This document shows, in pieces, positions 7,317 to 29,630 of a DNA stretch of 35,968 nucleotides (positions are counted from its first letter, which is position 1; every line of letters begins with the position of its first letter). Both the position numbers and the translations under genes were made by a program. The notes under the pieces are model-generated. The model ran no database searches. It saw nothing but the letters and a program-made list of their open reading frames with translations, and was not told where the DNA came from. Location of the stretch: assembly GCA_944385435.1 (NCBI GenBank), contig CALWXG010000023.1, forward strand, positions 1 to 35,968. Direction: 5' to 3'. The DNA is from an uncultured Oscillospiraceae bacterium (GTDB lineage: Bacteria > Bacillota > Clostridia > Oscillospirales > Oscillospiraceae).

Positions 7317-8507
7317 ATGAAACATCGCTTGCTCGCCCTGCTGCTGGCTGCGGGCCTGACGCTGTCCCTGTGCGCCTGCGGCGATCCCGCCGCCGGCGGC
7401 AGCGCGGATCCCTCCGCCAGTCCCTCCTCCGGGACGGACGCCTCCGCCGCGCCCTCTTCGGAGATCCAGGTGGATCTCACCCAGGCCCTGCTCCCCTTTG
7501 CCGCCGGGCTGGAGTCCGATGAGACTGCCCTCACCGTCAACGGCCAGGAGGTACCCGCCGACCTGTTCCTGTACTGGCTGGCCCTGAACTGCACCAGCTT
7601 CCAGCAGTACTACGGCATGCCTGTGGACCTCTACGCCGACGCCCTGCTCCAGGACAGTCTGAACATGACGGCCTACTACGTTCTGATGGAGCAGAAAGCC
7701 CTGGAGGAGGGCTGCCCCCTCACCGATGAGCAGAACGCGGAGATCCAGGAGCAGATGCTGGCCAACGGCGAGCAGACCTACGAAAACCAGAAGCTGCTCT
7801 TCGGCCTCACCGACGAGACCATGGAGTTCATTTTTGCCGTGGACAGCTACTACAACAACCTGCTGCAGGCGCTGACCGGGGACCCCACCCAGGAGGACCT
7901 GGACGCCTACCTCTCCGACAACGGTATTTTTTCCGTCAAGCACATCCTGCTCATGACCGTGGACCCCGCGGGCACTCCCGAGGCCCAGGAGGACGGCTCC
8001 TACGCCTATCCCTCCCTGGACGAGGAGACGGTGGCGGAGAAAAAGGCCCTGGCGGAGGATCTGCTGGCCCAGCTCCAGGCCAGCGATGACCAGGAAACCC
8101 TCTTCGACGAGCTGATGAACGAGTACAGCGAAGACACCGGCCTGGCCTACTACCCGGACGGCTACACCTATGACAACACCACCTCCCTGGTGGACGGCTT
8201 CCGGGAGGCCGCCCTGGCTCTGGAGCCGGGCGAGCTGTCCGGCATCGTGGAAACCGACTACGGCTACCACATCATGCTCCGCCTGCCGGTGGACCCGGAG
8301 GACTACCGGGACGCCTGCCGCCAGAGCGGGCTGAACGATCAGATCAATCAGTGGCTGGAAGACGCGGAGATCACCCCGGTGGCGGCGGTGGAAGCGCTGG
8401 ATGTGTCCGATTTCTTTGACCGCTACAATGCCTGGCAGACCGCCATGGCCCAGCAGCTGGACGCCCAGAGCGGCGACGCCTCCCCCGCCCCCTCGTCTGA
8501 TGCGTAA
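7317..8507 (+). CDS. PrsA/SurA-like peptidyl-prolyl isomerase lipoprotein
   Basis: A 396-residue protein exported as a lipoprotein: MKHR, a hydrophobic stretch, then a lipobox ending at Cys21 (LCAC). Next comes a Gly/Ser/Ala-rich linker, then an N-terminal SurA_N-like helical segment (LTVNGQEVPADLFLYWLAL). A parvulin (PpiC) domain lies at roughly 200-330 (VKHILLM, FDELMNEYSEDTG, LEPGELSGIVETDYGYHIM). It should help fold secreted proteins at the outer face of the membrane. The ATG at 7317 was preferred to the TTG at 7311 because AGGAG lies nine bases before it. The last 25 residues are low complexity (Ser/Ala/Pro). Confidence 0.9.
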   Translation: MKHRLLALLLAAGLTLSLCACGDPAAGGSADPSASPSSGTDASAAPSSEIQVDLTQALLPFAAGLESDETALTVNGQEVPADLFLYWLALNCTSFQQYYGMPVDLYADALLQDSLNMTAYYVLMEQKALEEGCPLTDEQNAEIQEQMLANGEQTYENQKLLFGLTDETMEFIFAVDSYYNNLLQALTGDPTQEDLDAYLSDNGIFSVKHILLMTVDPAGTPEAQEDGSYAYPSLDEETVAEKKALAEDLLAQLQASDDQETLFDELMNEYSEDTGLAYYPDGYTYDNTTSLVDGFREAALALEPGELSGIVETDYGYHIMLRLPVDPEDYRDACRQSGLNDQINQWLEDAEITPVAAVEALDVSDFFDRYNAWQTAMAQQLDAQSGDASPAPSSDA

Positions 8508-11702: not shown

Positions 11703-12962
11703 ATGAGAGATGTCTATGTTGTCAACTGCTGCCGTACCGCCGTGGGCTCCTTTGGCGGCTCCCTGAAGGACACCCCCGCTGCCGATATGGGCGCAGTGGT
11801 TGTCAAGGAAGCCCTGAACCGCGCCGGCGTGAAGCCCGAGCAGGTGGATGAACTGATGTTCGGCTGCATCCTCACTTCCGCTCTGGGCCAGAACCCCGCC
11901 CGTCAGGTGGGCGTGAAGGCCGGCCTGCCCTACTCTGTCCCCGCCTACACCGTGGGCATGGTGTGCGGCTCCGGCATGAAGTCCGTCATCGAGGGCGCCC
12001 GCGCCATCCTCGCCGGCGATGCTGATATCATTGTGGCCGGCGGCACCGAGAACATGTCCGCCGCTCCCTTCGCCCTGCCCAACGAGCGCTGGGGCGCCCG
12101 CATGGGCGACAAGAAGGTCGTGGACACCATGATCAAGGACGGCCTGTGGGACGCTTACAACAACTACCACATGGGCACCACCGCCGAGAACATCGCCGAC
12201 GTGTGGGGCATCACCCGTCAGGAGATGGACGAGTTCGCCGCCTCTTCCCAGCAGAAGACTGAGGCCGCCCAGAAGGCCGGCAAATTCGACGACGAGATCG
12301 TTCCCATCATGGTGAAGAAGAAGAAGGAAATGGTGGAGTTCAAGGTGGACGAGTTCCCCCGCGCCGGCGTCACCACCGAGAGCATTGCCAAGCTGAAGGG
12401 TGCTTTCCCCGTGGGTCCCGAGGGCGTGGAGGACGAGATTGTCCACACCTTTGATGTGACCCAGGTCCATGAGGACGACGCCCGCAAGCACGTGCAGCGC
12501 GTCACCGCCGCCAACGCCTCCGGCATCAATGACGGCGCCGCCGCCATCGTGCTGGCCTCCGGCGAGGCTGTGGAGAAGTACGGCCTGAAGCCCATGGCCA
12601 AGCTGGTGAGCTGGGGCCAGGGCGGCGTGGATCCCAAGATCATGGGCGTGGGCCCCGTGCCCGCCTCCCGTCAGGCCATGGAGAAGGCCGGCCTGAAGAT
12701 CGAGGACATCGACCTGGTGGAGGCCAACGAGGCCTTTGCCGCCCAGTCCATCGCCGTGGCCCGGGAGCTGGGCTTCGACATGAGCAAGGTCAACGTGAAC
12801 GGCGGCGCCATCGCCCTGGGCCACCCCGTGGGCGCCTCCGGCGCGCGCATCATCGTCACCCTGCTCCACGAGATGCAGAAGCGGCCCGAGGCCAAGAAGG
12901 GCCTGGCCACCCTGTGCATCGGCGGCGGCATGGGCGTTGCCACCATCTTCGAGAAGTGCTGA
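11703..12962 (+). CDS. Acetyl-CoA C-acetyltransferase (thiolase)
   Basis: A 419-residue biosynthetic thiolase that condenses two acetyl-CoA to acetoacetyl-CoA, or runs in reverse. Catalytic residues are visible: Cys88 in VCGSG, His374 in [14 protein letters not shown], and Cys405 in CIGGGMG. The usual length is about 393. The excess is explained by one insertion of roughly 26 residues at about 236-264 (rich in Asp, Glu, Val, His), just before the conserved [12 protein letters not shown] segment. GGAGG precedes the ATG. The CoA-transferase genes follow in the same direction. Together they fit acetoacetyl-CoA metabolism in butyrate-type fermentation. The symbol thlA or atoB would be reasonable. 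Confidence 0.95.
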
Positions 12963-13070
12963 TCAGAAGCGTCTGAGCCGTCGTGAGCAGTCTCTTTCGT
13001 CTGCTCCCCGGCAATCCTCCCCGCTGTCCTCTCCGGCAGCGCGGGATATGTACACAGTACACGACCCGAA

Positions 13071-13107
13071 GGGGGCGGGTCCTTATGGAGCCGTCCCCTT
13101 TGCTTTT
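13071..13107 (+). terminator. Attenuator-like hairpin between thiolase and CoA-transferase genes
   Basis: GGGGGCGG (13071-13078) pairs with CCGTCCCC (13091-13098, one G-U) around a 12-nt loop, followed by TTTGCTTTT. It sits only about 30 bp before the subunit A start, so it may set the expression ratio. No clear promoter follows it. Confidence 0.5.
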
Positions 13108-13133
13108 ACAAACCTTTGAGGAGGTCAAATCAA

Positions 13134-13823
13134 ATGCCCAAATTCGTATCCATCGAAGAGGCGGTCAAACTGATCCCCGATGGCGCCACCGTGATGTTCG
13201 GCGGCTTCATGGGGTGCGGCAACGCCCATAAGTTCATTGACGCGCTGAGCAAGAGCGGCGTCAAGGATCTGACCATGATCTGCAACGATGCCTCTATGCC
13301 CGGCGGCCCCATGGGCGAGGACTACTACGGCGTGGCCAAGCTGGTGCACAACCACCAGATCAAGAAGCTCATCGCCACTCACGTGGGCCTGAACCCCGAA
13401 GTCGCCCAGCAGTCCATGCAGGAGTGCACCCTGGAAGTCATCCTGATCCCCCAGGGCTCTCTGGCTGAGATGATCCGGGCCGACGGTGCCGGTCTGGGCG
13501 GCGTGCTCACCCCCACCGGCGTGGGCACCATCGTGGAGGACAACCCCTACTGCCTGGGCAAGCAGACCATCAACGGCAAGGACTACCTGCTGATGGCCCC
13601 CATTCACGCCGACTTCGCCGTCATCGCCGGCTACAAGATCGACAAGGCCGGCAACGTCTGGTACAAGGGCGACACCAGCAACTTCAACATCGTCATGGCC
13701 ACCGCCGCCGACACCGTCATCGCTGAGGCGGAGCAGGTGGTGGAGATCGGCGACATCGCCCCCGAGGATGTGCGCACCTCCGGCGTGTTTGTGGATTATG
13801 TGGTTGAGGGAGGTCTCTACTAA
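13134..13823 (+). CDS. 3-oxoacid/acetoacetate CoA-transferase subunit A
   Basis: A 229-residue alpha subunit of a class I CoA-transferase: MPKFVSIEEAVKLIPDGATV, the GGFMGCGNAH glycine loop, NDASMPGGPMG, and the LIPQGSLAEMIRADGAGLGGVLTPTG segment typical of AtoD/ScoA. It moves CoA between acyl-CoA and a free acid together with subunit B. The ATG at 13134 has GAGGAGG nine bases upstream. An earlier in-frame TTG overlaps that ribosome site and was rejected. It shares one base with the start of subunit B (TAATG), so the subunits are coupled. The gene name atoD/ctfA is plausible, but substrate range is not readable. Confidence 0.93.
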   Translation: MPKFVSIEEAVKLIPDGATVMFGGFMGCGNAHKFIDALSKSGVKDLTMICNDASMPGGPMGEDYYGVAKLVHNHQIKKLIATHVGLNPEVAQQSMQECTLEVILIPQGSLAEMIRADGAGLGGVLTPTGVGTIVEDNPYCLGKQTINGKDYLLMAPIHADFAVIAGYKIDKAGNVWYKGDTSNFNIVMATAADTVIAEAEQVVEIGDIAPEDVRTSGVFVDYVVEGGLY

Positions 13824-14479
13824 TGGATAAGTCTCAGATCAAAGCGTTCATCGCCGCCCGCGTGGCCAAGGAGCTGAAGGACGGCGACGTGGTCAACCTG
13901 GGCATCGGCCTGCCCACCCTGGTCCCCAACTATCTGCCCGAGGGCGTGCACGTCACTCTCCAGAGCGAGAACGGCATCATCGGCACTGGCTCCGTCACCG
14001 ACGAGAACAAGGATCCCATCCATGTGGTGGACGCCGGCGGTTCTCCCTCCGCTGTGGGCCACGGCGGCAGCTTCATTGACTCCTCCGTCTCCTTCGGCCT
14101 GATCCGCGGCGGCCATGTGGACGCCACCGTGCTGGGCGGCCTGGAAGTGGACGAGGAGGGCTCCCTGTCCAACTGGATCATCCCCGGCAAGAAGATGCCC
14201 GGCATGGGCGGCGCCATGGACCTGCTGGTGGGCGCCAAGAACGTGATCGTGGCCATGGAGCACACCGCCAAGGGCAACCCCAAGATCCTGAAGAAGTGCA
14301 AGCTGCCCTATACCGCCGTGAAGTGCATCACCAAGATCATCACCGAGATGTGCGTGCTGGAGGTCACTGACAAGGGCCTCTACATGACCGAGATCAACCC
14401 CGAGTTCACTGTGGAGCAGGTTCAGGCCGCCACCGAGGCCGAGCTGATCATCAGCCCCGACCTGAAACCCATGGTGTAA
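13823..14479 (+). CDS. 3-oxoacid/acetoacetate CoA-transferase subunit B
   Basis: A 218-residue beta subunit: AARVAKELKDGDVVNLGIGLPTLV at the start, and the catalytic glutamate in QSENGIIG, which forms the glutamyl-CoA thioester in this family. GGSPSAVGHGGSFIDSS and GGHVDATVLGGLEVDEEG follow. It pairs with the preceding subunit A, with which it overlaps by one base. With the thiolase upstream, a likely role is acetate/butyrate:acetoacetate CoA exchange in fermentation or amino-acid degradation. The lysine-fermentation genes that often accompany it in gut butyrate producers are not in this window. Confidence 0.93.
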   Translation: MDKSQIKAFIAARVAKELKDGDVVNLGIGLPTLVPNYLPEGVHVTLQSENGIIGTGSVTDENKDPIHVVDAGGSPSAVGHGGSFIDSSVSFGLIRGGHVDATVLGGLEVDEEGSLSNWIIPGKKMPGMGGAMDLLVGAKNVIVAMEHTAKGNPKILKKCKLPYTAVKCITKIITEMCVLEVTDKGLYMTEINPEFTVEQVQAATEAELIISPDLKPMV

Positions 14480-14509
14480 TCAGAGGCACCCAGCATCCTG
14501 TCATAGATA

Positions 14510-14550
14510 AAAATCCGTGTGTTTCCCGTGAAACACACGGATTTTTTCTC
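14510..14550 (+). terminator. Terminator after the CoA-transferase genes, with a near-parS core
   Basis: A perfect 16-bp stem (14510-14525 with 14530-14545), loop CCGT, then TTTTTT. Its centre, TGTTTCCCGTGAAACA (14520-14535), differs from the parS consensus at one position. Confidence 0.92.
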
Positions 14551-14553
14551 TGT

Positions 14554-14568
14554 GCAACCGTCAGTTGC
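14554..14568. promoter_or_regulatory. Candidate operator of XRE-membrane regulator 1
   Basis: GCAACCGTCAGTTGC: inverted repeat GCAAC-N5-GTTGC, 20 bp upstream of the -35 of the following XRE gene. A matching element stands 21 bp upstream of the -35 of the paralogue (19508-19522). Confidence 0.5.
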
Positions 14569-14588
14569 GTCCTGCCAAGCCGCCTTGG

Positions 14589-14618
14589 TTGACAAATTCC
14601 CGCCGCCGCCCTTACAAT
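14589..14618 (+). promoter_or_regulatory. Promoter of XRE-membrane regulator 1
   Basis: TTGACA (14589-14594, perfect), 18 bp, TACAAT (14613-14618). Confidence 0.82.
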
Positions 14619-14649
14619 AGGGTCAGAATCCCATGGAGGAGGAGTTGCG

Positions 14650-15579
14650 ATGACTCTCGGCCAAACCATTCACCGCCTGCGCCTGGAGCACGGCCTGTCC
14701 CAGGCCGACCTTGCCGACCGCCTGGAGGTCTCCTGGCAGTCTATCTCAAAGTGGGAGACGGACTCCTCAGTGCCCGAGCTGGACAAATTGATCGCCCTGA
14801 GCCGGATCTTCGGCGTCACCTTGGACGAGCTGGTGGGGCACACCCCGGACATGCCCGCGTCACCGGCCCCAGAGGCGGCTTCCGATTCCACCCCGGATCC
14901 CGCAAAATCTGCACCCACCACACTTCCCCTGCGCAAGCTGATGGGCATCTTGCTGCTCTTCTTCGGGGGCACGGTCTTTTTGTTCTTCGCTCTACCGGGG
15001 CGCTCCTTGGCCAACGGCCTGGTCTACTGCGCCCCGCTGGCGGTCAGCGGCGTCCTGTGCCTGGCCTGCCGCCGGCCGGGGCTGTGGTGCGCCTGGATCT
15101 GGCTGTTCTACGGGTGCTTCTACCTGCGCTTCGCCTCGGGCGTCCTGTCTACCCTGATGTTCCATTGGACCCTGCCCTTCCGCACCGCCACCGCCCTCTC
15201 CTCCGGCTCCCCCAGCTGGATCTTCTGGATGGCCATCGCCTGGGCCTTCGTCCTCCTGGCCGGCCTGCTACTGGCGCTCACCGTCCGCCGCTTCCGCCAT
15301 GGGGTCTTCCGCTTCACCCGGCGGACCGTCCCCACCCTGGCGGCCGAGTGGGCGCTGTTCCTGGCCCTCCCCTTTCTGGCGGATCAGATCAGCCTGGCGC
15401 TACTCCCCCTCATCCAGGGGGATCCAGTCGGCCGCATGTATACCTATCTGGACCTTCTCCACGAGCTGCTCATGACCGCCCTGGACTTCAGCCGGCTGGC
15501 CCTGCTGGCCGTCCTGCTGGTCTGCCTGATCCGAGGAATCCGCACCCACTGCCTGCGCAAAAAGGCGGGCTTGCTCTGA
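14650..15579 (+). CDS. XRE-family DNA-binding protein fused to a multi-span membrane domain
   Basis: A 309-residue protein. Residues 1-65 form a Cro/C1-type helix-turn-helix (LSQADLADRLEVSWQSISKWE, then VPELDKLIALSRIFGVTLDELV). A Pro/Ser/Ala-rich linker (about 68-95) leads to roughly six hydrophobic segments between 98 and 300. The regulator is thus tethered to the membrane, and its membrane part probably senses something or responds to a partner. The first 65 residues closely resemble the N-terminus of the minus-strand gene at 18221-19426, but the membrane/extracellular parts are unrelated in layout. GGAGGAG lies seven bases before the ATG. No function is known. Confidence 0.85.
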   Translation: MTLGQTIHRLRLEHGLSQADLADRLEVSWQSISKWETDSSVPELDKLIALSRIFGVTLDELVGHTPDMPASPAPEAASDSTPDPAKSAPTTLPLRKLMGILLLFFGGTVFLFFALPGRSLANGLVYCAPLAVSGVLCLACRRPGLWCAWIWLFYGCFYLRFASGVLSTLMFHWTLPFRTATALSSGSPSWIFWMAIAWAFVLLAGLLLALTVRRFRHGVFRFTRRTVPTLAAEWALFLALPFLADQISLALLPLIQGDPVGRMYTYLDLLHELLMTALDFSRLALLAVLLVCLIRGIRTHCLRKKAGLL

Positions 15580-15602
15580 TGTTCCGGTACTCCGTTCCTT
15601 CC

Positions 15603-15630
15603 GGCCGCCCGTTTCCCGGGTGGCCTTTTT
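15603..15630 (+). terminator. Terminator after XRE-membrane regulator 1
   Basis: Nine-bp stem GGCCGCCCG/CGGGTGGCC (one G-U), loop TTTCC, then TTTTT. The rest of the 185-base gap up to 15764 is AT-rich. It has several possible -10 hexamers but no promoter I would commit to. Confidence 0.85.
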
Positions 15631-15764
15631 CTTGTCTTCCCGGCGGGGATATGATAGGATAGAACAGAAGGCAGCCGTCTTTTCCCCCTCCGTTTTCATT
15701 CCAAATCGTATTATTCCCTGTATATATTTCATTTCGGAGTCTATATTCTGAAGGGAGGACCGCT

Positions 15765-16892
15765 ATGAGCCAGCGCACCCGACTGTTCCACCGGAAAGAT
15801 CCCTATGACCTGCCCGCCAGCGACCAGCAGTTCCTCCGGGCCGTCCGGGAGAACTGCGCCTTCCACTACGCCCACTGCCCGGAATACCGGGCGGTGCTGG
15901 ACAGCTTCTCCTTCCGGCCGGAGGATTTGAAGGAATATGGCGACCTGGAGAAACTCCCCTTCCTGCCCACACTGACCTTCAAACAGCACCGGCTGTTCTC
16001 CCTGCCCCGGTGGAAGATGGCGGCGGTGTCCACCTCCTCGGGCACCTCGGGGCAATTCAGCGAGGTGGGCTTTGACTTCCCCGCCCTGTGGTGCGACTGG
16101 AACATGCTGTGGAAGGTGGGCCGGCCCCGGGGCTTCTTCTCCTCCAGACCCACACACTATGTGATCCTGGGCTACAAGCCCCGGCGGGACAACCGCACCT
16201 CGGTGGCCCGCACCGCCTTTGGCGCCACCCTGCTGGCCCCCGCTCTGAGCCGGACCTATGCCTTGAAGTACGAAAACGGTAGCTACACCCCCGACCTGGA
16301 CGGGGTGGCGGACGCCCTGGTCCGCTGCGGCAAATCCCGTTTCCCCACCCGGCTGGTGGGCTTTCCCTCCTATACCTATTTCCTGCTGCGGCTGCTGGAG
16401 AGCCGGGGCGTCCGGCTGTCCCTGCCTCCCGGCTCCAAAATCCTGCTGGGGGGCGGCTGGAAGCAGTTTTACACCCAGCAGGTGGAAAAGCCCGTCCTCT
16501 ATGATCTGGCCCAGCGGGTGCTGGGCATCCCGGAGGAGCGCATCATCGAAGTGTTCAGCGCCGTGGAGCATCCCATTCTCTACGCCGACTGCGTGCACCA
16601 CCATTTCCACGTGCCCATCTACAGCCGGGTCATCATCCGGGACCCGGAGACGCTGGCCCCCCTGCTCCCCGGCCAGCCGGGGCTGGTGGAGTTTCTCACT
16701 CCGCTGCTCACCGCCACCCCCATTCTGGCGGTAATGACCGATGACCTGGGCATCCTCCACCCCGCCGGCTCCTGTCCCTGCGGCAACCCGGCCCCCTGGC
16801 TGGAGATCCTGGGCCGGGTGGGGCTGAAGGACATCAAGACCTGTGCGGCGGGAGCCGCGGAACTGCTGGGAAAAGGAGGGGATGTCCTGTGA
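15765..16892 (+). CDS. LuxE-like acyl-protein synthetase / acyl-activating enzyme
   Basis: A 375-residue member of the LuxE family of adenylating enzymes. It has the AMP-binding loop STSSGTSG (89-96), the LuxE-type GGGWK motif (229-233), the TDDLGIL adenylate-binding region (about 325-331), and a Cys at 360. That is close to the C-terminal Cys that accepts the acyl group in luminous-bacteria LuxE (about 362-364). Family knowledge: LuxE activates a fatty acid with ATP and passes it to the LuxC reductase. GAAGGGAGG precedes the ATG. Its stop overlaps the LuxC start by four bases. No luciferase (LuxAB) or thioesterase (LuxD) is near. The acyl substrate is unknown. Confidence 0.85.
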   Translation: MSQRTRLFHRKDPYDLPASDQQFLRAVRENCAFHYAHCPEYRAVLDSFSFRPEDLKEYGDLEKLPFLPTLTFKQHRLFSLPRWKMAAVSTSSGTSGQFSEVGFDFPALWCDWNMLWKVGRPRGFFSSRPTHYVILGYKPRRDNRTSVARTAFGATLLAPALSRTYALKYENGSYTPDLDGVADALVRCGKSRFPTRLVGFPSYTYFLLRLLESRGVRLSLPPGSKILLGGGWKQFYTQQVEKPVLYDLAQRVLGIPEERIIEVFSAVEHPILYADCVHHHFHVPIYSRVIIRDPETLAPLLPGQPGLVEFLTPLLTATPILAVMTDDLGILHPAGSCPCGNPAPWLEILGRVGLKDIKTCAAGAAELLGKGGDVL

Positions 16893-18175
16893 TTCTCGCC
16901 AACGGAACCCTCTACGACACCAGCCGCCAGGACGAGCTTCTGGACGGGCTGGAGGAGCGGCTCAACCGCACTCTGGCGGAGCAGACCCTGGCCCCGGAGC
17001 AGGTCATCTCCGCCATTGACCGGCTGGGTCAGCGGCTGGACCGGGGGGAATTTGACGCCCTGCTCTCCCAGGTGGAACTGGCGGACCGGTATCTGGCCCA
17101 GATCCGCCCCCACCTCACCCGGGAGGCTCTGGAGTACAAGCTCCGGGTGGAGCTGGGGACGGACACCGCCCCCTTTGTCACCCGGCCGCCGGAGGAACTG
17201 TCCCCCATCACGGTCCGTCCCGCGCCCCTGGGGGTACTGCTCCACATCGCCGCCGGCAATGTGGACGGCCTGCCCGCCTACAGCGTGGTGGAGGGACTGC
17301 TCACCGGCAACATCAACATCCTGAAGCTGCCCCAGGCGGACAACGGCCTGTCCGTGGAGATCCTGCGCCAGCTCATCCGGGAGGAGCCCGCCCTCACCGA
17401 TTTCATCTACGCCTTTGACACCCCTTCCGAGGACGTGGACGCCCTGCTGCGCATGGCCCAGCTCAGTGACGGCGTGGTGGTCTGGGGCGGAGACGGGGCG
17501 GTGTCCGCCGTGCGCCGGTTCGCCCCCGTAGGGGTGAAGCTGATGGAATGGGGCCACCGGCTGAGTTTTGCCTACCTGTCCGGGGCCCAAGACCGGGCGC
17601 GGGACTGGCCCGCCCTGGCCCGGCACATCGTGGAGACCCGCCAGCTGCTGTGCTCCTCCTGCCAGGTCATCTATCTGGACACGGAGCGTCCGGAGGACGT
17701 CCACACCTTCTGCCGGGACTTCCTCCCCCTGCTGGAGCAGGCCGCCGCCAGCGGCCCCGCCCGGAGCCTGGGGGCGGTGTCGGAGCTCACTCTGCGGCGG
17801 TATCAGGAGCGGGTGGAGCGGGCCATCTCCGGCGACGCCAGACAGTCGGACCGCCGGGTCTACCACGGCCGGGGCTGCTCCCTCACCGCCTGCGCAGACC
17901 GGGAACTGGAGCTGTCCCACCTATTCGGCAATCCGCTGGTGAAGGCCCTGCCCCGGAGGGAACTGCTGCCCACCCTGCGGCGGCAGAAGGGCCGGCTGCA
18001 GACCGCCGGTCTGCTGTGCCCGGAGGCGGACCGGGCTGCCCTCACCGACCTGCTGGTGCGCTCCGGTGTGACCCGGGTGCTCCCGGCCGGAGAGATGTCG
18101 GACACCTTTTCCGGGGAGGCCCATGACGGAGAGTACCCCCTGCGGCGGTACACCCGGATGGTGAACGTGAGATAG
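16889..18175 (+). CDS. LuxC-like acyl-CoA/acyl-protein reductase
   Basis: A 428-residue protein of the LuxC family, an aldehyde-dehydrogenase-fold NADPH-dependent reductase. The cofactor-side segment PLGVLLHIAAGNVDGLPA (113-130), NINILKLPQADNG, the VWGGDGAV stretch and the putative catalytic Cys255 in QLLCSSCQV (compare CSSPQ of LuxC) are visible. It starts at GTG 16889, overlapping the LuxE-like gene by GTGA. The two are certainly co-translated and by family knowledge would form a fatty-acid reductase yielding aldehydes. The physiological product here could be a fatty aldehyde for lipid or signal synthesis (inference). Confidence 0.86.
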   Translation: MILANGTLYDTSRQDELLDGLEERLNRTLAEQTLAPEQVISAIDRLGQRLDRGEFDALLSQVELADRYLAQIRPHLTREALEYKLRVELGTDTAPFVTRPPEELSPITVRPAPLGVLLHIAAGNVDGLPAYSVVEGLLTGNINILKLPQADNGLSVEILRQLIREEPALTDFIYAFDTPSEDVDALLRMAQLSDGVVVWGGDGAVSAVRRFAPVGVKLMEWGHRLSFAYLSGAQDRARDWPALARHIVETRQLLCSSCQVIYLDTERPEDVHTFCRDFLPLLEQAAASGPARSLGAVSELTLRRYQERVERAISGDARQSDRRVYHGRGCSLTACADRELELSHLFGNPLVKALPRRELLPTLRRQKGRLQTAGLLCPEADRAALTDLLVRSGVTRVLPAGEMSDTFSGEAHDGEYPLRRYTRMVNVR

Positions 18176-18180
18176 AAGAA

Positions 18181-18219
18181 GGCCGCCGGTCCTTGATCTG
18201 ACCGGCGGCCCGCTTTTTT
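18181..18219. terminator. Bidirectional terminator between LuxC and XRE regulator 2
   Basis: Eleven-bp stem GGCCGCCGGTC/GACCGGCGGCC with an 8-nt loop, TTTTTT on the plus side. On the minus strand it is followed by TTCTTCT. It separates two convergent genes. Confidence 0.9.
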
Positions 18220-18220
18220 G

Positions 18221-19426
18221 CTATCCTCTGCCGGAGGTGTCCAGAACCGGCGGCGACTCCACCGGACCGTCCTCCCCGGCGGTCATGGACCATATCTCCA
18301 CCGTCTCCCGGCCCAGGCTGTCCCCCATGGTCAGGGAGAATTCCACCACGACCCCCACGTTCAGCCGCAGTTGGCGCACCCCCTGGTCATCCCGGCCGTA
18401 CCAGAGATCATCCCCCTCCTGCGTCAGGGTCAGAGAAACGCTCTCCAGCTCCTGGCCGTTCAGTGTGACAGTGAGCCGGGCCCAGGCGGGCTGGAACAGC
18501 TGGGGATAGGGGGAGTAGATCCGCACCGCCGGGTCCTCCGCCGTGACCGTGGCGCTGCTGCCCACGGAGATGGCATAGAAGGCGGCCAGGCTGTCCGCCC
18601 GCAGTTGGAACTGCTCCGGCCCCAGGGAGCTGATGGGCTCCAGCTCCATCTCCCGGACGTTTCCTTCCTCCTCCACCCGGAGGGCGCAGATATACCCCCA
18701 GTCTGACATGGGGATCCCCGCAAGGCTGCCGGTAAAGTCCGGGGCCTGTGCCCACTGGCTCACGTATTGCTCCCCATCGGTCCCCGTGAGCATCAGCTGC
18801 ACCTGGGCGCCCATGCTGTACTCCTTCAGGGAGATCTGCCAGGCCAGGTCTGCCGTCTCCCCCTCCGGGTCAAAGGACAGCACCTCCCAGGTAAACTGGC
18901 TGACGGGATCCGCCATCTCTTGCTGGATGTCTTGCAGCTGCCCATAGAGCCGGTTTATCTCATTCTGCTGCTGCACATGATCCCAGGACAAACTGGAAAA
19001 TTGATTTCGAATACTACTGACCGTATTGAGCAAATAGAACATCAGCATGAACAAAGCCGCCACCACCGCCGCCGCCAGGGCAATCACCGCCCGCTGCCAG
19101 CCGTGCCTGCCTGGGGCGGCGGCAGGCTGCTGCCGGCGGGTCTGCTCCGCATACCGGCGGAGAATGGCCTCCACCCGGGCGTCGGTGTCATCCCCGTCCC
19201 GGCTCGGGCCGCCCTGCTCTCTCCCGGGTTCCTCCACCCCCAGCAGCTGGCCCACGGTGACGCCGAACAGCCGGCTCATGGCGATGAGGGTGTCCAGCTC
19301 CGGCACGCCGTTGTCGCTCTCCCATTTGCTCACCGCCTGCCGGGTCACCCCCAGCCGCTCCGCCAGCTGCTCCTGGGTGTACCCCGCCTGTTTTCGCAGC
19401 TCCTGGATCCTCTGTCCCAGCGTCAT
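18221..19426 (-). CDS. XRE-family regulator with one membrane span and an extracytoplasmic domain
   Basis: A 401-residue protein. Its N-terminal helix-turn-helix (YTQEQLAERLGVTRQAVSKWE, then VPELDTLIAMSRLFGVTVGQLL) is a close paralogue of the gene at 14650-15579. After a charged/Pro-rich linker comes a single transmembrane helix (about residues 110-130). A short coiled-coil-like segment (QQQNEINRLYGQLQDIQQEM) and an approximately 230-residue beta-rich region outside the membrane follow. This looks like a one-component signal transducer. The start at 19426 has GGGAGG upstream. An upstream in-frame ATG would start inside the promoter, so it was rejected. Convergent with the LuxE/C operon. Confidence 0.83.
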   Translation of the reverse strand: MTLGQRIQELRKQAGYTQEQLAERLGVTRQAVSKWESDNGVPELDTLIAMSRLFGVTVGQLLGVEEPGREQGGPSRDGDDTDARVEAILRRYAEQTRRQQPAAAPGRHGWQRAVIALAAAVVAALFMLMFYLLNTVSSIRNQFSSLSWDHVQQQNEINRLYGQLQDIQQEMADPVSQFTWEVLSFDPEGETADLAWQISLKEYSMGAQVQLMLTGTDGEQYVSQWAQAPDFTGSLAGIPMSDWGYICALRVEEEGNVREMELEPISSLGPEQFQLRADSLAAFYAISVGSSATVTAEDPAVRIYSPYPQLFQPAWARLTVTLNGQELESVSLTLTQEGDDLWYGRDDQGVRQLRLNVGVVVEFSLTMGDSLGRETVEIWSMTAGEDGPVESPPVLDTSGRG

Positions 19427-19457
19427 CCGCCCCGCCTCCCTCTGTCTTTGTGCCTTC

Positions 19458-19486
19458 AGCATAGCAGACCGGATCCAATCCGACAA
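19458..19486 (-). promoter_or_regulatory. Promoter of XRE-membrane regulator 2
   Basis: Minus strand: TTGTCG (19486-19481), 17 bp, TATGCT (19463-19458), with TGC forming an extended -10. Confidence 0.6.
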
Positions 19487-19507
19487 CCGCCCCGGCGTTT
19501 CTTTTTG

Positions 19508-19522
19508 TCAACGCTCCGTTGC
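19508..19522. promoter_or_regulatory. Candidate operator of XRE-membrane regulator 2
   Basis: On the minus strand GCAACGGAGCGTTGA: GCAAC-N5-GTTG, 21 bp upstream of the -35. It has the same spacing and nearly the same position as the element at 14554-14568. Confidence 0.5.
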
Positions 19523-19543
19523 ACCCCTTGGGGCACAGGGGTT

Positions 19544-19810
19544 TCAGTCCTCCCGGGCCGCAATGCGCCAGACCCGCTCCACATCCTCCGGCTCAGCGTG
19601 GCCCTCAAACACCTTCTCCCCGCCCACATACCAGGTGGGGACATAATAGTAGTCATGGGCGTCGGCAAAGGCCCGCTCTCTGCCCTCATCCACAATCCGC
19701 AGCGGAATCTCCCGCCACTCCGGATGGGCCTCCAGCAGCGCCTGCTGGGCCCCCAGGGCGTACCGGCAGTGGGGGCAGCCGGGCAGAATAAACATCAGTA
19801 CGTCTTTCAT
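19544..19810 (-). CDS. Small glutaredoxin/thioredoxin-fold protein (CPHC)
   Basis: An 88-residue soluble protein starting MKDVLMFILPGCPHCRYA, with the redox motif Cys-Pro-His-Cys at residues 12-15. The cis-proline element (VPTWYVGGEKVFEG) comes later, as in glutaredoxin-like proteins. It probably reduces or forms disulfides in the cytoplasm. The partner is not evident. The start at 19810 follows AGGAGGG at good distance. An upstream in-frame ATG at 19894 would overlap the divergent tadA gene and was rejected. The gene is divergent from tadA. Confidence 0.85.
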   Translation of the reverse strand: MKDVLMFILPGCPHCRYALGAQQALLEAHPEWREIPLRIVDEGRERAFADAHDYYYVPTWYVGGEKVFEGHAEPEDVERVWRIAARED

Positions 19811-19892
19811 GGGAATCCCTCCTGAAAAAGATCTTTTGTTTCCCGCAGATCTATGATACCATGTTTCAGAGAATGAGGACAGGGGGAATTCC

Positions 19893-20348
19893 ATGACTCA
19901 CGAGGACTATATGCGCCAGGCCCTGGAGCTGGCCCGGGCCTGCATCCCCGACGGGGATGTGCCTGTGGGCTGCGTCATCGCCGACGCCCGGGGACGGATC
20001 ATCGGCCGGGGCCGGAACCGCCGGGAGGCGGATCACAGCGCCGTGGCCCACGCGGAGATCGAGGCCATCACCCAGGCCTGCCGGGCGGTGGGCAGCTGGC
20101 GGCTGGAGGGCTGCACCCTGTACGTCACCCTGGAACCCTGCCCCATGTGCGCCGGCGCCATCCTGAACGCCCGCATCCGGGCGGTGCGCTACGGCGCCCG
20201 GGAGGACAAATCCGGCTGCTGCGGCTCGGTGCTCAACCTCTTTGAGGAGCGCTTTAACCACCACCCCCGGATCTACGGCGGGCTGCTGGAGGAGGAGTGC
20301 CGGAGCGTTTTGGAGGAGTTTTTCGCCGGGCTGCGGAAAAACACCTGA
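19893..20348 (+). CDS. tadA: tRNA-specific adenosine deaminase
   Basis: A 151-residue zinc deaminase converting A34 to inosine in the tRNA-Arg(ACG) anticodon. It has HAEIEAI (His-Ala-Glu with the catalytic Glu), PCPMCAGAI (the two zinc Cys) and the TadA C-terminal signature (KSGCCGSVLNL). AGGGGG precedes the ATG. It is followed by the duplicated sRNA-like modules, whose first hairpin may also end the tadA transcript. Confidence 0.95.
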   Translation: MTHEDYMRQALELARACIPDGDVPVGCVIADARGRIIGRGRNRREADHSAVAHAEIEAITQACRAVGSWRLEGCTLYVTLEPCPMCAGAILNARIRAVRYGAREDKSGCCGSVLNLFEERFNHHPRIYGGLLEEECRSVLEEFFAGLRKNT

Positions 20349-26896: not shown

Positions 26897-27685
26897 ATGG
26901 CCCTGTTTTTAAAATCCCCGAGGCGTCAGATCATGGAGCTCCCCATTGCCTCCATCTCTCCCAATCCGCATCAGCCCCGGAAGGTGTTCCGGGATGAGGA
27001 GTTGTCAGAATTGGCCCGTTCCATCGCCCAGCTTGGCATTCTCCAGCCGCTCTCCGTCCGCCGCGTCTCCACCGGCTGGGAATTGATCGCCGGCGAGCGC
27101 AGGCTGCGTGCCGCTCAGCTGGCCGGACTGACCACAGTCCCCTGCCTGGTGGTGGATGCGGATCCGGATACCTCTGCCCTTCTGGCTCTGGTGGAGAATA
27201 TCCAGCGGAAGGATCTCTCTGTCTGGGAGGAGGCACAGGCTCTGAAACAACTGATTGATCAATTTCATCTCTCCCAGGAGGAAGCTGCTCAACGGGTGGG
27301 AAAAAGCCAGTCGGCCGTGGCCAACAAACTGCGGCTGCTGAAGCTGCCTGCGGATGTGATCTCCTCGCTGCAGCAGGCCCAGCTGACTGAACGCCACGCC
27401 CGTGCCCTTCTGCGGCTGGAGTCCGCTGACCAGCAGAGGACCGCCGCACAGCACATCATCCGAAACCATCTGAATGTGGCGCAGACAGAACATTATGTGG
27501 ACAAGCTCTGTCAGAAGCCCTCTTCCCGGAAGGCGATTCCCATTTACCGCACCCGGGACGTACGTCTCTTTCTGAATACCGTCCAGCATGGCTTGGCACT
27601 GATGCAGTCCTCCGGCGTCGATGCCCACTGCGGCCGGGAGGAAACGGAGCACGAAATTACCCTTACCATACGAATTGCAAAATAA
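26897..27685 (+). CDS. noc: Nucleoid occlusion protein (ParB paralogue)
   Basis: A 262-residue ParB-family CTPase. It has the CTP-binding motifs GERRLRAA (67-74) and ENIQRKDL (100-107), then a helix-turn-helix at about 125-150. There it carries Gln138 and Lys144 in KSQSAVANKLRLLKLP. These match the residues that give Bacillus Noc its own binding-site specificity, whereas the second ParB here has Arg and Ala. The N-terminal MALFLKSPRR may act as the short membrane-targeting helix of Noc. Noc keeps the division ring off the nucleoid. AAGGTGG lies seven bases before the ATG. It is separated from parA by a terminator and three parS sites. Confidence 0.85.
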   Translation: MALFLKSPRRQIMELPIASISPNPHQPRKVFRDEELSELARSIAQLGILQPLSVRRVSTGWELIAGERRLRAAQLAGLTTVPCLVVDADPDTSALLALVENIQRKDLSVWEEAQALKQLIDQFHLSQEEAAQRVGKSQSAVANKLRLLKLPADVISSLQQAQLTERHARALLRLESADQQRTAAQHIIRNHLNVAQTEHYVDKLCQKPSSRKAIPIYRTRDVRLFLNTVQHGLALMQSSGVDAHCGREETEHEITLTIRIAK

Positions 27686-27692
27686 GGAATGT

Positions 27693-27725
27693 ACGCGGGT
27701 TTCCATCCGGAAGCCCGCGTTTCTT
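27693..27725 (+). terminator. Terminator after noc
   Basis: Twelve-bp stem 27693-27704 with 27709-27720 (one G-U), loop ATCC, then TTTCTT. It abuts the first parS site. Confidence 0.8.
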
Positions 27726-27740
27726 GTTTCACGTGAAACG
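27725..27740. promoter_or_regulatory. parS site 1
   Basis: TGTTTCACGTGAAACG: 15 of 16 bases of the parS consensus TGTTTCACGTGAAACA, the ParB centromere. Confidence 0.95.
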
Positions 27741-27761
27741 GTCCCTTCCCTCCCAAAAGGA

Positions 27762-27777
27762 TGTTTCACGTGAAACA
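27762..27777. promoter_or_regulatory. parS site 2
   Basis: TGTTTCACGTGAAACA: perfect palindromic parS. Confidence 0.97.
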
Positions 27778-27795
27778 CCCTTTTTTATTGCACAA

Positions 27796-27811
27796 CGTTT
27801 CACGTGAAACA
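27796..27811. promoter_or_regulatory. parS site 3
   Basis: CGTTTCACGTGAAACA: one mismatch, at the outer base. Sites 1, 2 and 3 are 37 and 34 bp apart. Confidence 0.95.
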
Positions 27812-27847
27812 ATGCGGTTTTTCTCTCATTCCCGCTCCGGAAAGTGG

Positions 27848-27876
27848 TTGCAATATACTTCAGAAATGGATATAAT
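27848..27876 (+). promoter_or_regulatory. Promoter of the parAB operon
   Basis: TTGCAA (27848-27853), 17 bp, TATAAT (27871-27876), 37 bp after the last parS, so bound ParB could affect it. Confidence 0.8.
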
Positions 27877-27942
27877 GAATACTGCGCAGCAAAGAGAAAC
27901 GTGATTCGCACGATGCGGTCTGAGAAAGGCGGGATTCTCCCC

Positions 27943-28710
27943 ATGGGCAAAACCATTGCGATTGTCAACCAAAAAGGCGGTGTGGGCAAGACCACAACCT
28001 GCGTGAACCTGGCTGCTGCCCTCACCGGGCTGGGTGCAAAGGTTCTTGTCTGCGACTTTGACCCCCAGGGAAACGCCACGTCTGGTTTTGGCATTGATAA
28101 AGCCCATTCTCCCAACATTTATGATGTAATCATGGGTCTGATTCCCCTTTCAAGATCCATTGTGGCAACAAAATGGGCCGATGTGGTCCCCTCCAACAAG
28201 TCTCTGTCCGGCGCCACCGTGGAGCTGATCTCCCTGGATCGCCGGGAATACCGTCTTCGGGATGCCATTGAGGAAGTGAAGGGCCGATACGATTTTGTAT
28301 TTATTGACTGCCCTCCCTCCCTGGAACTGCTCACGCTGGATGCGCTGTGTGCTGCGGATACCCTCCTGGTTCCGGTACAGTGTGAATACTATGCACTGGA
28401 GGGGCTCAGCGATCTGTTGTATACCGTCCGGCTGGCAAAGCGTTCCCTCAATCCCGCCCTGGAGCTGGAGGGCGTGCTCCTCACCATGTACGATGGGCGC
28501 ACAAACCTCTCCATGCAGGTGGCGGAGGAAGTCAAGCGCTATTTTCCCGGAAAGGTATATGCCTCTGTCATTCCCCGCAATGTCCGTCTCTCTGAAGCAC
28601 CCAGCCATGGAAAACCGGTGTCGGCCTACGACCGGCTCTCCCGGGGTGCGGATGCCTATGAGGCGATGGCCCGGGAATTCTATCGAAAGAACGGAGGAAA
28701 ATCCTTATAA
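27943..28710 (+). CDS. parA: Chromosome partitioning ATPase ParA (Soj)
   Basis: A 255-residue Walker-type ATPase with the deviant Walker A KGGVGKTT, VCDFDPQGNATSGFG, VFIDCPPSLELLTLDAL and the DNA-binding-side C-terminus (PRNVRLSEAPSHGKP). It moves ParB-parS complexes to segregate origins. In Bacillus it also affects DnaA. The ATG at 27943 (MGKTIAIVNQKGG) was chosen because it matches family N-termini. An earlier in-frame ATG at 27844 overlaps the promoter. The ribosome site is weak (AAAGGCGG). parB follows after 26 bp. Confidence 0.95.
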   Translation: MGKTIAIVNQKGGVGKTTTCVNLAAALTGLGAKVLVCDFDPQGNATSGFGIDKAHSPNIYDVIMGLIPLSRSIVATKWADVVPSNKSLSGATVELISLDRREYRLRDAIEEVKGRYDFVFIDCPPSLELLTLDALCAADTLLVPVQCEYYALEGLSDLLYTVRLAKRSLNPALELEGVLLTMYDGRTNLSMQVAEEVKRYFPGKVYASVIPRNVRLSEAPSHGKPVSAYDRLSRGADAYEAMAREFYRKNGGKSL

Positions 28711-28736
28711 ATATCAGAAAGGCAGGTTCTTAGTTC

Positions 28737-29630
28737 ATGGCAAAAGCCAAAGGTCTGGGCCGTGGTTTGGGTGCACTGATGGGCGACGCAGCACTTCAAA
28801 CCCAGGAATCCGGTTCTGTTTTTCTGCCGATATCGCAGGTGGAACCGGGATTGAATCAGCCCAGAAAGAGATTCGATGACCAGTCACTTTCCGATCTGGC
28901 TGACTCCATACGGGAACACGGCATTATTCAGCCGCTGACCGTCCGGCGCCTGTCCACCGGTTATTATCAGATCATTGCAGGTGAGCGGCGCTGGCGGGCG
29001 GCAAAGCTGGCCGGTTTGGCCGAGGTTCCCGCTGTCATCATCGAGGCGGATGACAAGAAGGTCATGGAGCTGGGTCTGATCGAAAATCTCCAGCGGGAGG
29101 ATCTAAACCCCATGGAGGAGGCCGAAGGCTATCTCCTGCTGCTGACCGATTACGGCATGACTCAGGAGGAAGTGGCCAAGCGGATGGGCAAATCCAGGCC
29201 CGCCATTGCCAACGCCCTGCGCCTCACCGCCCTCCCCCCTGCAGTGCGGGAGATGCTGGTGGAGGGCTCCCTCACTGCCGGGCACGGCCGAGCCGTGCTT
29301 ATGGTGGAGGGTGACACCGCCCAGGAGGCCTTTGCCCAGGAAATTGTCCGGCAGGGCCTCAGCGTCCGACAGGCTGAAGCTGCGGCGAAGAAATTCACGC
29401 TGGCCGCCCCTGCTCCCAAGAAGGCGCCGGCGGAGGACCCCAACCGGATCTACGTCCAGGCCGCAGAGCAATCCCTCTCAGGCAGGCTGGGCAGAAAAGT
29501 GACCATTTCAACGGGCAGAAAGAAAGGCCGGCTGGAGCTGGAGTTCTACAATATGGATGACCTGAATGCCCTTCTTGACCTTCTGAACACCCTCACACCT
29601 AAGAGCGAGGAGGGCGATTCAAATGGATGA
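28737..29630 (+). CDS. parB: Chromosome partitioning protein ParB (Spo0J)
   Basis: A 297-residue CTP-dependent clamp protein that loads at parS. MAKAKGLGRGLGAL, the ParA-contact start, is followed by GERRWRAA (82-89) and ENLQREDLNPMEEA (116-129). The helix-turn-helix is TQEEVAKRMGKSRPAIANAL, with Arg154 where Noc has Gln. A linker then leads to the C-terminal dimerisation domain, whose GRLELEFYNMDDLNALLDLL is typical. Its stop overlaps the next gene by eight bases. Four nearby parS sites are its expected targets. Confidence 0.95.
   Translation: MAKAKGLGRGLGALMGDAALQTQESGSVFLPISQVEPGLNQPRKRFDDQSLSDLADSIREHGIIQPLTVRRLSTGYYQIIAGERRWRAAKLAGLAEVPAVIIEADDKKVMELGLIENLQREDLNPMEEAEGYLLLLTDYGMTQEEVAKRMGKSRPAIANALRLTALPPAVREMLVEGSLTAGHGRAVLMVEGDTAQEAFAQEIVRQGLSVRQAEAAAKKFTLAAPAPKKAPAEDPNRIYVQAAEQSLSGRLGRKVTISTGRKKGRLELEFYNMDDLNALLDLLNTLTPKSEEGDSNG

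Follow-up and report, generated by a model that had tools for sequence, protein, structure and literature searches.

The 35,968-nucleotide (nt) contig CALWXG010000023.1 of an uncultured bacterium of the family Oscillospiraceae (hereafter, the window, that is, the whole stretch of DNA analyzed at its full length) encodes a LuxE-type acyl-protein synthetase immediately followed by a LuxC-type acyl reductase. An earlier note, made from the sequence alone, had proposed such a luciferase-less pair with a four-base overlap at this place, and the Pfam and structure matches described below, together with the GTGA junction, bear out both homologies and the overlap. The unit consists of the following features:

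15765-16892, forward strand: luxE, LuxE-type acyl-protein synthetase of 375 amino acids (aa), with the SSGTSG loop at residues 91-96, the acyl-carrier Cys360 and the conserved C276, H282, C337 and C339
16889-18175, forward strand: luxC, LuxC-type acyl reductase of 428 aa, with the catalytic Cys255
16889-16892, forward strand: GTGA overlap of the luxE stop and the luxC start (translational coupling)
16873-16879, forward strand: AAGGAGG ribosome-binding site of luxC, located within luxE, 9 nt before the GTG
15751-15758, forward strand: AAGGGAGG, ribosome-binding site of luxE
15632-15660, forward strand: putative promoter, TTGTCT-17 nt-TAGGAT
15603-15625, forward strand: terminator-like hairpin between the upstream helix-turn-helix (HTH) gene and luxE, 9 pairs and a T-rich tail
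18181-18210, both strands scored: terminator-like hairpin between luxC and the convergent HTH gene, 11 and 12 pairs

LuxE matched the Pfam family PF04443 (E=1.5e-35; 123 bits, above the curated cut-off of 24.9), LuxC matched PF05893 (E=3e-49; 168 bits, above the cut-off of 21), and each family has a single match in the whole genome. In sequence searches of solved structures, the best matches were two chains of the same entry, 7xc6_E for LuxE (E=2e-18) and 7xc6_A for LuxC (E=5.5e-11); the N-terminus of LuxE additionally yielded a partial match to the NCBIfam PaaK model. In the alignment to the solved LuxE, both the loop and Cys360 have counterparts; LuxC Cys255 aligns with a cysteine of the solved LuxC and with Cys288 of a luminous LuxC. 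We examined conservation in alignments of 56 sequences, with relatives 47-97% identical to the window proteins, and found that S91, G93, T94, G96 and C360 of LuxE, as well as Cys255 and Glu220 of LuxC, were invariant in all 56, the last residue being a lysine in the luminous LuxC compared. The adenylation loop and the two catalytic cysteines to which the earlier note drew attention are thus retained, whereas the second cysteine of the CSSC motif, Cys258, is variable. Four further LuxE residues, C276, H282, C337 and C339, are also invariant in the 56 aligned sequences, and in the 94-row alignment used for the LuxE tree 91 rows have all four. One exception is L098, where C337 is gapped; the others are the Pantoea LuxE of L160 and the luminous LuxE of locus L158, which has D, H, K and P at these positions. 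The three cysteines are also missing from 7xc6_E. This set looks like a candidate metal site that came down from PaaK-like ancestors and disappeared from luminous LuxE.

Both AlphaFold2 models have good overall confidence. The LuxC model (mean predicted local distance difference test, pLDDT, 86.6) had 7xc6_A, the LuxC of a LuxC-LuxE complex, as its top solved fold (E=5.5e-20), followed by folds of the aldehyde dehydrogenase kind. For the LuxE model (pLDDT 87.3), the best solved fold matches were PaaK-type ligases (2y27 and 2y4n). Most of LuxE residues 354-375, around Cys360, have pLDDT below 50, which probably reflects a mobile, acyl-carrying C-terminus, a mode of action proposed for luminous LuxE as well. 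The ratio of nonsynonymous to synonymous substitution rates (dN/dS) between the window genes and three relatives is 0.08-0.16 and, therefore, the pair is not a chance arrangement but is under purifying selection.

Because hairpins lie on both sides of luxE-luxC, separating it from both flanking regulators, and a promoter-like pair precedes it, the two genes are most likely expressed as a separate two-gene transcript, a prediction from sequence signals. L003 has exactly the same promoter-like stretch, and inspection by eye shows a related TTGCCA-17-TAGAAT upstream in L005; the consensus promoter scan did not report the 15632-15660 pair. In the region as a whole, 5 terminator-like sites were found, compared to 2.5 expected. 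No operator was evident upstream of luxE, where the commonest 8-mers occurred in at most 13 of 77 sequences and mostly resembled promoters or ribosome-binding sites. Flanking regulators with membrane domains, as described in the earlier note, are indeed present, that is, HTH proteins with 5 and 1 membrane segments predicted from hydropathy. They are not conserved, however: HTH_3 is found upstream in only 2 of the 67 neighbors scanned, those in L003 and the window, so these proteins appear to be local neighbors, which, being also separated by hairpins, find no support as partners of the pair.

To define the distribution of the pair, we used a pattern-based scan of one genome per species across 84,980 species, which yielded 204 stretches with LuxC relatives, of which the best 80 were kept. 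Most of these 80 are titled Clostridia or subgroups thereof, many from gut or rumen, with a few others, such as L012 (Actinomycetota). In 79 of the 80 loci, LuxE is encoded upstream on the same strand, and the contig of the remaining one (L065) starts inside LuxC. Among the 77 full-length pairs in the 81 loci that include the window, 67 have the exact 4-nt overlap. Within the window's family, a strong LuxE match (E<=2.4e-28) was detected in 22 of the 250 sampled genomes, two of these cut by contig ends; 16 are of the window type (10 genera) and 6 are divergent. Only 1 of the 5 sampled genomes of the window's genus carries the pair. A class-wide sample of 391 genomes contained 25 LuxE matches at E<=1e-20 and 14 at E<=2.3e-71, 9 of these 14 belonging to the window clade (the tree omits one of the 9, a near-duplicate). 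In the second family, f46, the pair was found in 68 of 115 genomes, with four fragments at contig ends and one internal stop. Thus, the pair is accessory in the window's family and common in f46.

Comparison of close relatives points to mobility. The sister genomes G066 and G202 retain the order of the genes for a calcium ATPase (Ca-ATPase), a thiolase and TadA without the pair or its CoA-transferase neighbors; G247 keeps the Ca-ATPase and TadA, and the stretch in G145 stops at a contig end. Conversely, L004 and L005, in which LuxE is 84% and 80% identical to that of the window, carry the pair but none of the other genes among the 17 window genes compared. Given these sister genomes without the pair and its different surroundings in L004 and L005, the unit has been gained, lost or moved over short times, although the GC content at third codon positions (GC3) of luxEC, 0.87-0.89, now equals that of the neighbors (0.82-0.90). 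The interval between the thiolase and TadA (window 11703-20348) is a variable spot that holds a CoA-transferase pair, an HTH-membrane gene and luxEC in the window and L003 and lacks them in G066 and G202. The convergent HTH-membrane gene (window 18221-19486) is missing at the L003 site, where luxC is followed by a small open reading frame (ORF) and then TadA.

A survey of conserved neighborhoods, proposed in the earlier note, revealed no general partner and only group-local blocks. Sequence clustering of up to 10 kb on either side in the 80 loci and the window produced no non-LuxE/LuxC cluster represented in more than 17 loci, with scattered positions. The Pfam scans of first neighbors covered 67 of 71 upstream and 70 of 73 downstream genes, after L023, L032, L070 and L077 had been dropped upstream and L015, L023 and L052 downstream (near-duplicates, fragments, doubtful ORFs); among the 25 commonest families listed, none occurred in more than 5 of the 67 or 5 of the 70. 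A codon-scored rerun on 105 loci (6 skipped or uncalled) and a survey of 52 loci mainly from the second family again yielded no conserved partner; because some contigs were entered twice, under a record name and a G handle, these locus counts are not fully independent. Genes intervene between luxE and luxC in three loci, namely, a metallo-beta-lactamase-like ORF (L028, by eye), a tyrosine phosphatase (L036) and a phospholipase D (PLD)-domain protein (L138); an apparent fourth case, L049, was a calling artefact of the rerun. In 8 of the 52 loci (L149, at 7502-7960, L008, L076, L079, L152, L199, L201 and L202), luxC is followed by a gene for a small membrane protein, some 150 aa long, that contains an HEYGH motif and has no Pfam match. 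The chief new finding is that Clostridia repeatedly carry a free-standing module of two genes, mostly with the 4-nt overlap, and that no neighbor of it is conserved in the loci examined.

The phylogeny of the pairs, likewise called for in the earlier note, sets the window unit apart from the luminous enzymes. In the LuxE tree (94 rows, built with a quick method and containing long branches among the outgroups), the window unit belongs to a 60-row clade (support 95) that includes the Chloroflexota plasmid locus L094, whereas the clostridial glycan-island LuxE and the luminous LuxE fall outside both this clade and the neighboring 10-row group (support 86). The latter consists of four Streptomyces-type plasmid rows, one from a Salmonella plasmid and five clostridial rows, of which L113 is long-branched. 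In a joined LuxE and LuxC tree of 40 loci, the pair mostly follows the family, with the exception of well-supported branches that require 3 or more changes for f46; the hypothesis of one f46 clade is rejected (p 6e-28), f46 having been picked for this test after the LuxE tree was seen. In the same tree, L094 pairs with G173 from the window's family at 100 in the Shimodaira-Hasegawa-like approximate likelihood ratio test (SH-aLRT). In loci L114-L118, from the low-GC clostridial family f44, the LuxE loop is changed (SSATTT, SSSTTT and similar), possibly with altered chemistry.

Compared to the luminous LuxC-LuxE of Photobacterium phosphoreum (7xc6), both subunits are homologous, and the loop, the acyl-carrier cysteine and the reductase cysteine align, but the window pair differs in the E-C order with the GTGA overlap, in the presence of C276, C337 and C339, which both 7xc6_E and the luminous LuxE of L158 lack, in Glu220 in place of lysine, and in its genomic setting. 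The bacterial luciferase family PF00296 had no matches in the whole genome of this bacterium, which is 94% complete (the control matched in 10 of 14 genomes), and the search of the window for LuxD gave no match better than E=0.2; the absence of LuxAB and LuxD noted earlier thus holds genome-wide for the former and within the window for the latter. The window proteins score well under the NCBIfam cut-offs for the luminous enzymes (82 of 550 bits for LuxE and 47 of 750 for LuxC) and are, therefore, distant relatives of those enzymes rather than the enzymes themselves. The PaaK-type acyl-CoA ligases of the ANL group share with LuxE the fold and the SSGT loop; the window LuxE differs in its Cys360 tail and in having a reductase partner that would take the place of the transfer to coenzyme A. 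Single-chain carboxylic acid reductases (CAR) are defined as one polypeptide with adenylation, carrier and reductase parts, the carrier domain bearing phosphopantetheine; the window pair, by contrast, is two proteins with one Pfam family each and no carrier domain.

Non-luminous relatives of the pair have been described before. One study reports LuxE and LuxC in Aeromonas flagellar glycan islands (PMC7874193), that is, the same two families in surface-glycan and flagellin-glycosylation islands (FGI in Aeromonas) of non-luminous hosts. These Aeromonas proteins are likened here by description, and the clade comparison was made with a clostridial island (L205), in which LuxE belongs to another clade and, unlike in the window, lies among glycosyltransferase, short-chain dehydrogenase/reductase (SDR) and AMP-ligase-like ORFs (by eye). 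No glycosyltransferase or sugar-modification neighbors were found among the window genes or, for the 25 commonest families listed, in the neighbor scans. This glycan-type island (L205 6905-19874) contains two LuxE/LuxC sets, one of them a 780-aa LuxE-LuxC fusion, which adjoin GT2, thiamine diphosphate (ThDP)-enzyme, SDR, aldolase-like and AMP-ligase-like ORFs (by eye). Elsewhere, a LuxC-like protein without a clear LuxE is described for the Mycobacterium marinum mel2 locus (PMC1793995), and a passage on gut biofilms in PMC11857192 merely mentions a "LuxC/LuxE two-component system", which is of no help here. The excerpts of the literature that were searched contain no description of LuxE-LuxC without luciferase in Clostridia.

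Plasmids carry related pairs as well. That of the Chloroflexota plasmid CP069395 (L094), although from a different phylum and 45% and 41% identical to the window proteins, is nested in the clade, has the same 4-nt overlap, and has no evident partner in the annotation. The Streptomyces-type and Salmonella plasmid pairs (L095-L099) belong to the neighboring LuxE group and have the same cysteine and histidine set (except for C337 in L098); unlike the window pair, those of the annotated plasmids L095, L097 and L098 lie within multi-gene clusters, with a LuxC-AMP-binding fusion in L095 and L097. On the Streptomyces europaeiscabiei plasmid (L098 2880-11338), the cluster encodes YcaO, a metallo-beta-lactamase fold, a 51-aa ORF, an MNIO-type protein (MbnB/TglH/ChrH), LuxE and LuxC, and looks as if it made a peptide natural product whose carboxylate is reduced. 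The Salmonella enterica plasmid (L095 2148-13749) carries HlyD, a peptidase-domain ABC transporter, LuxE, the fusion and a PaaK-type ligase.

Taking all these observations together, we favor, with a probability of roughly 0.6, the reading of LuxE-LuxC as a self-sufficient carboxylic acid reductase made up of two subunits, which acts on a common free acid and passes the aldehyde to general metabolism. LuxE would adenylate the free carboxylic acid with ATP and bind the acyl moiety in thioester linkage to Cys360, on its probably floppy C-terminal tail, Cys255 of LuxC would take over the acyl group, and reduction with NAD(P)H would release the aldehyde, to be handed to household enzymes, most simply, an alcohol dehydrogenase (ADH). 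For LuxE-LuxC, we infer complex formation, the direction of the reaction, the cofactor and the substrate alike. The route from acid to aldehyde through ATP-dependent activation and nucleotide-dependent reduction had been predicted in the earlier note, and the assignment to the two families with intact catalytic residues agrees with it. Because the module is free-standing, occurs in many contexts and lacks a partner, its substrate and product are expected to be handled by general metabolism and, because these contexts are unrelated, many gut Clostridia would be expected to encounter or produce the acid in question. Our tentative first guess is a free fatty acid, followed by a short, branched or aromatic acid.

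Several observations weigh against this reading or limit the support for it. The LuxE and LuxC distances are correlated (r=0.88; 2926 pairs, 77 loci), as for genes inherited together, but this would also be expected from common descent alone. The 50 fold matches listed for the LuxE model do not include the LuxE chain of 7xc6 and, given the scores far below the luminous cut-offs, the fatty acid specificity of the luminous enzymes is not transferable. Nearby ADH genes speak for the reading, within limits. A zinc-type ADH gene lies 9 bp downstream of luxC in L140, but in only 1 of the 151 sequences. For iron-type ADH (Fe-ADH), 14 of the 151 sequences have a match on the same strand at a distance of up to 5.3 kb, but all 14 come from f46 or from L076, which looks identical to an f46 contig, with none at other loci; they include one weak match (L203), several represent one syntenic block, and f46 genomes hold 1-4 Fe-ADH genes anyway, with at least one in 111 of 115. 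As a partner, Fe-ADH is thus suggestive only, being limited to one family, partly to one block, and to different paralogs. Finally, the surveys of ADH, YhhN, PF09989 and the luciferase family do not single out a substrate.

Among the roles listed in the earlier note, ether lipid or plasmalogen precursors came first, ahead of a signal or a modified metabolite. A supply of fatty aldehyde for these lipids is on balance not supported and, in our view, unlikely, but it has some points in its favor. A YhhN gene and luxC share 4 nt in L093, and within the window's family YhhN occurs in 9 of the 16 genomes with LuxEC and in 51 of the 234 without it (p=0.004); the protein between luxE and luxC in L138 reads like a cardiolipin synthase. 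When genera rather than genomes are counted, however, the YhhN link disappears (4 of 10 against 28 of 96, p=0.49), and it is absent in f46 (3 of 68 against 5 of 47, p=0.27); after this mixed outcome, YhhN was set aside as a partner. A single-sequence YhhN search of 100 sequences recovered only the L093 gene itself. Nor does PF09989, which we take to be the family of the plasmalogen synthase type (plsA/plsR), track LuxEC: all 5 sampled genomes of the window's genus have it, as opposed to 1 of 5 for LuxEC, and it occurs in 14 of 16 carriers and 168 of 234 others in the window's family (p=0.25), and in 63 of 68 and 42 of 47 in f46 (p=0.74), the last test being limited because PF09989 is nearly universal there. 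It was not found in the LuxEC genomes G164 and G173 (96-98% complete), and plasmalogen synthase was rejected as a partner, being unlinked in both families. As for published work, YhhN proteins are described as lysoplasmalogenases in PMC9052158; a review (PMC9702350) reports that bacteria used long-chain aldehydes, rather than alcohols, for plasmalogens, and also that the known clostridial route, via plsA/plsR, reduces the intact diacyl lipid. In L093 (MT835565.1; UNVERIFIED), LuxE, LuxC and YhhN form a series with 4-nt overlaps between successive genes. This record, filed as "Bacteriophage sp.", was the sole match in the phage sequence set searched but reads, by eye, as a bacterial chromosome contig, with ORFs for a topoisomerase, a formate-tetrahydrofolate ligase and TsaB/TsaE-like proteins, so that phage carriage was dismissed.

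An alternative to which we also assign a low probability is that the pair reduces the carboxylate of a specialized metabolite or peptide, as part of the sister clade seems to, with the remaining pathway encoded elsewhere. The neighboring LuxE group holds both the YcaO cluster of L098 and the L095 plasmid with its peptidase-domain transporter and fusion protein, and R196 occurs in all 70 rows of the two LuxE groups and H269 in 68 of them, both residues being absent from the luminous LuxE row; no biosynthetic partner, however, is conserved beside the pair in the loci examined. Less probable still is that the pair works mainly in reverse, oxidizing toxic aldehydes, with LuxC as an acylating dehydrogenase and LuxE releasing the free acid, a step that might regenerate ATP out of AMP and pyrophosphate. 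The invariant Glu220, at a position that is presumably the place of the general base in aldehyde dehydrogenases, and the aldehyde dehydrogenase folds listed after 7xc6_A for the LuxC model would fit this scheme. Other residues take the place of E220 in L107, L133 and L134 of the same clade, however, no aldehyde-producing enzyme is conserved near the pair, and adenylate-forming enzymes normally run forward. The patchy distribution, the varying position and the one plasmid location might suggest an anti-phage or other defense unit carried as an accessory island, which we regard as very improbable: neither protein matches any PADLOC model (E<=0.001), the pair is common in f46, and the first neighbors (E<=1e-10) gave 6 matches to 4 models among 67 upstream and 9 matches to 8 models among 70 downstream, these including the TadA neighbor of L003 and the HTH neighbor in the window.

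Outside this locus, the window contains two ParB-family genes close together, followed by seryl-tRNA synthetase and MscL (26897-29630), and so perhaps lies near the chromosome origin.

On a broader scale, it is conceivable, if doubtful, that the free-standing LuxE-LuxC module is older and wider than bioluminescence and represents a common, uncharted acid reduction in anaerobic gut and rumen Clostridia, converting a fatty, branched or aromatic acid that is common in the gut to the aldehyde and then the alcohol, and moving as a unit of two genes between families and even phyla; a pair of this kind might have given luminous bacteria their aldehyde supply, with the metal site of LuxE lost on the way. 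If the favored reading of the pair as a carboxylic acid reductase is true, many gut and rumen bacteria would have an energy-costly route from acids to aldehydes or alcohols, for which we found no description in the excerpts of the literature searched, and which could bear on the chemistry of fatty, bile-acid-like or aromatic acids in the gut. A natural acid reductase of anaerobes would also be a possible biocatalyst, and the luminous LuxC-LuxE would be but one offshoot of a wider family.

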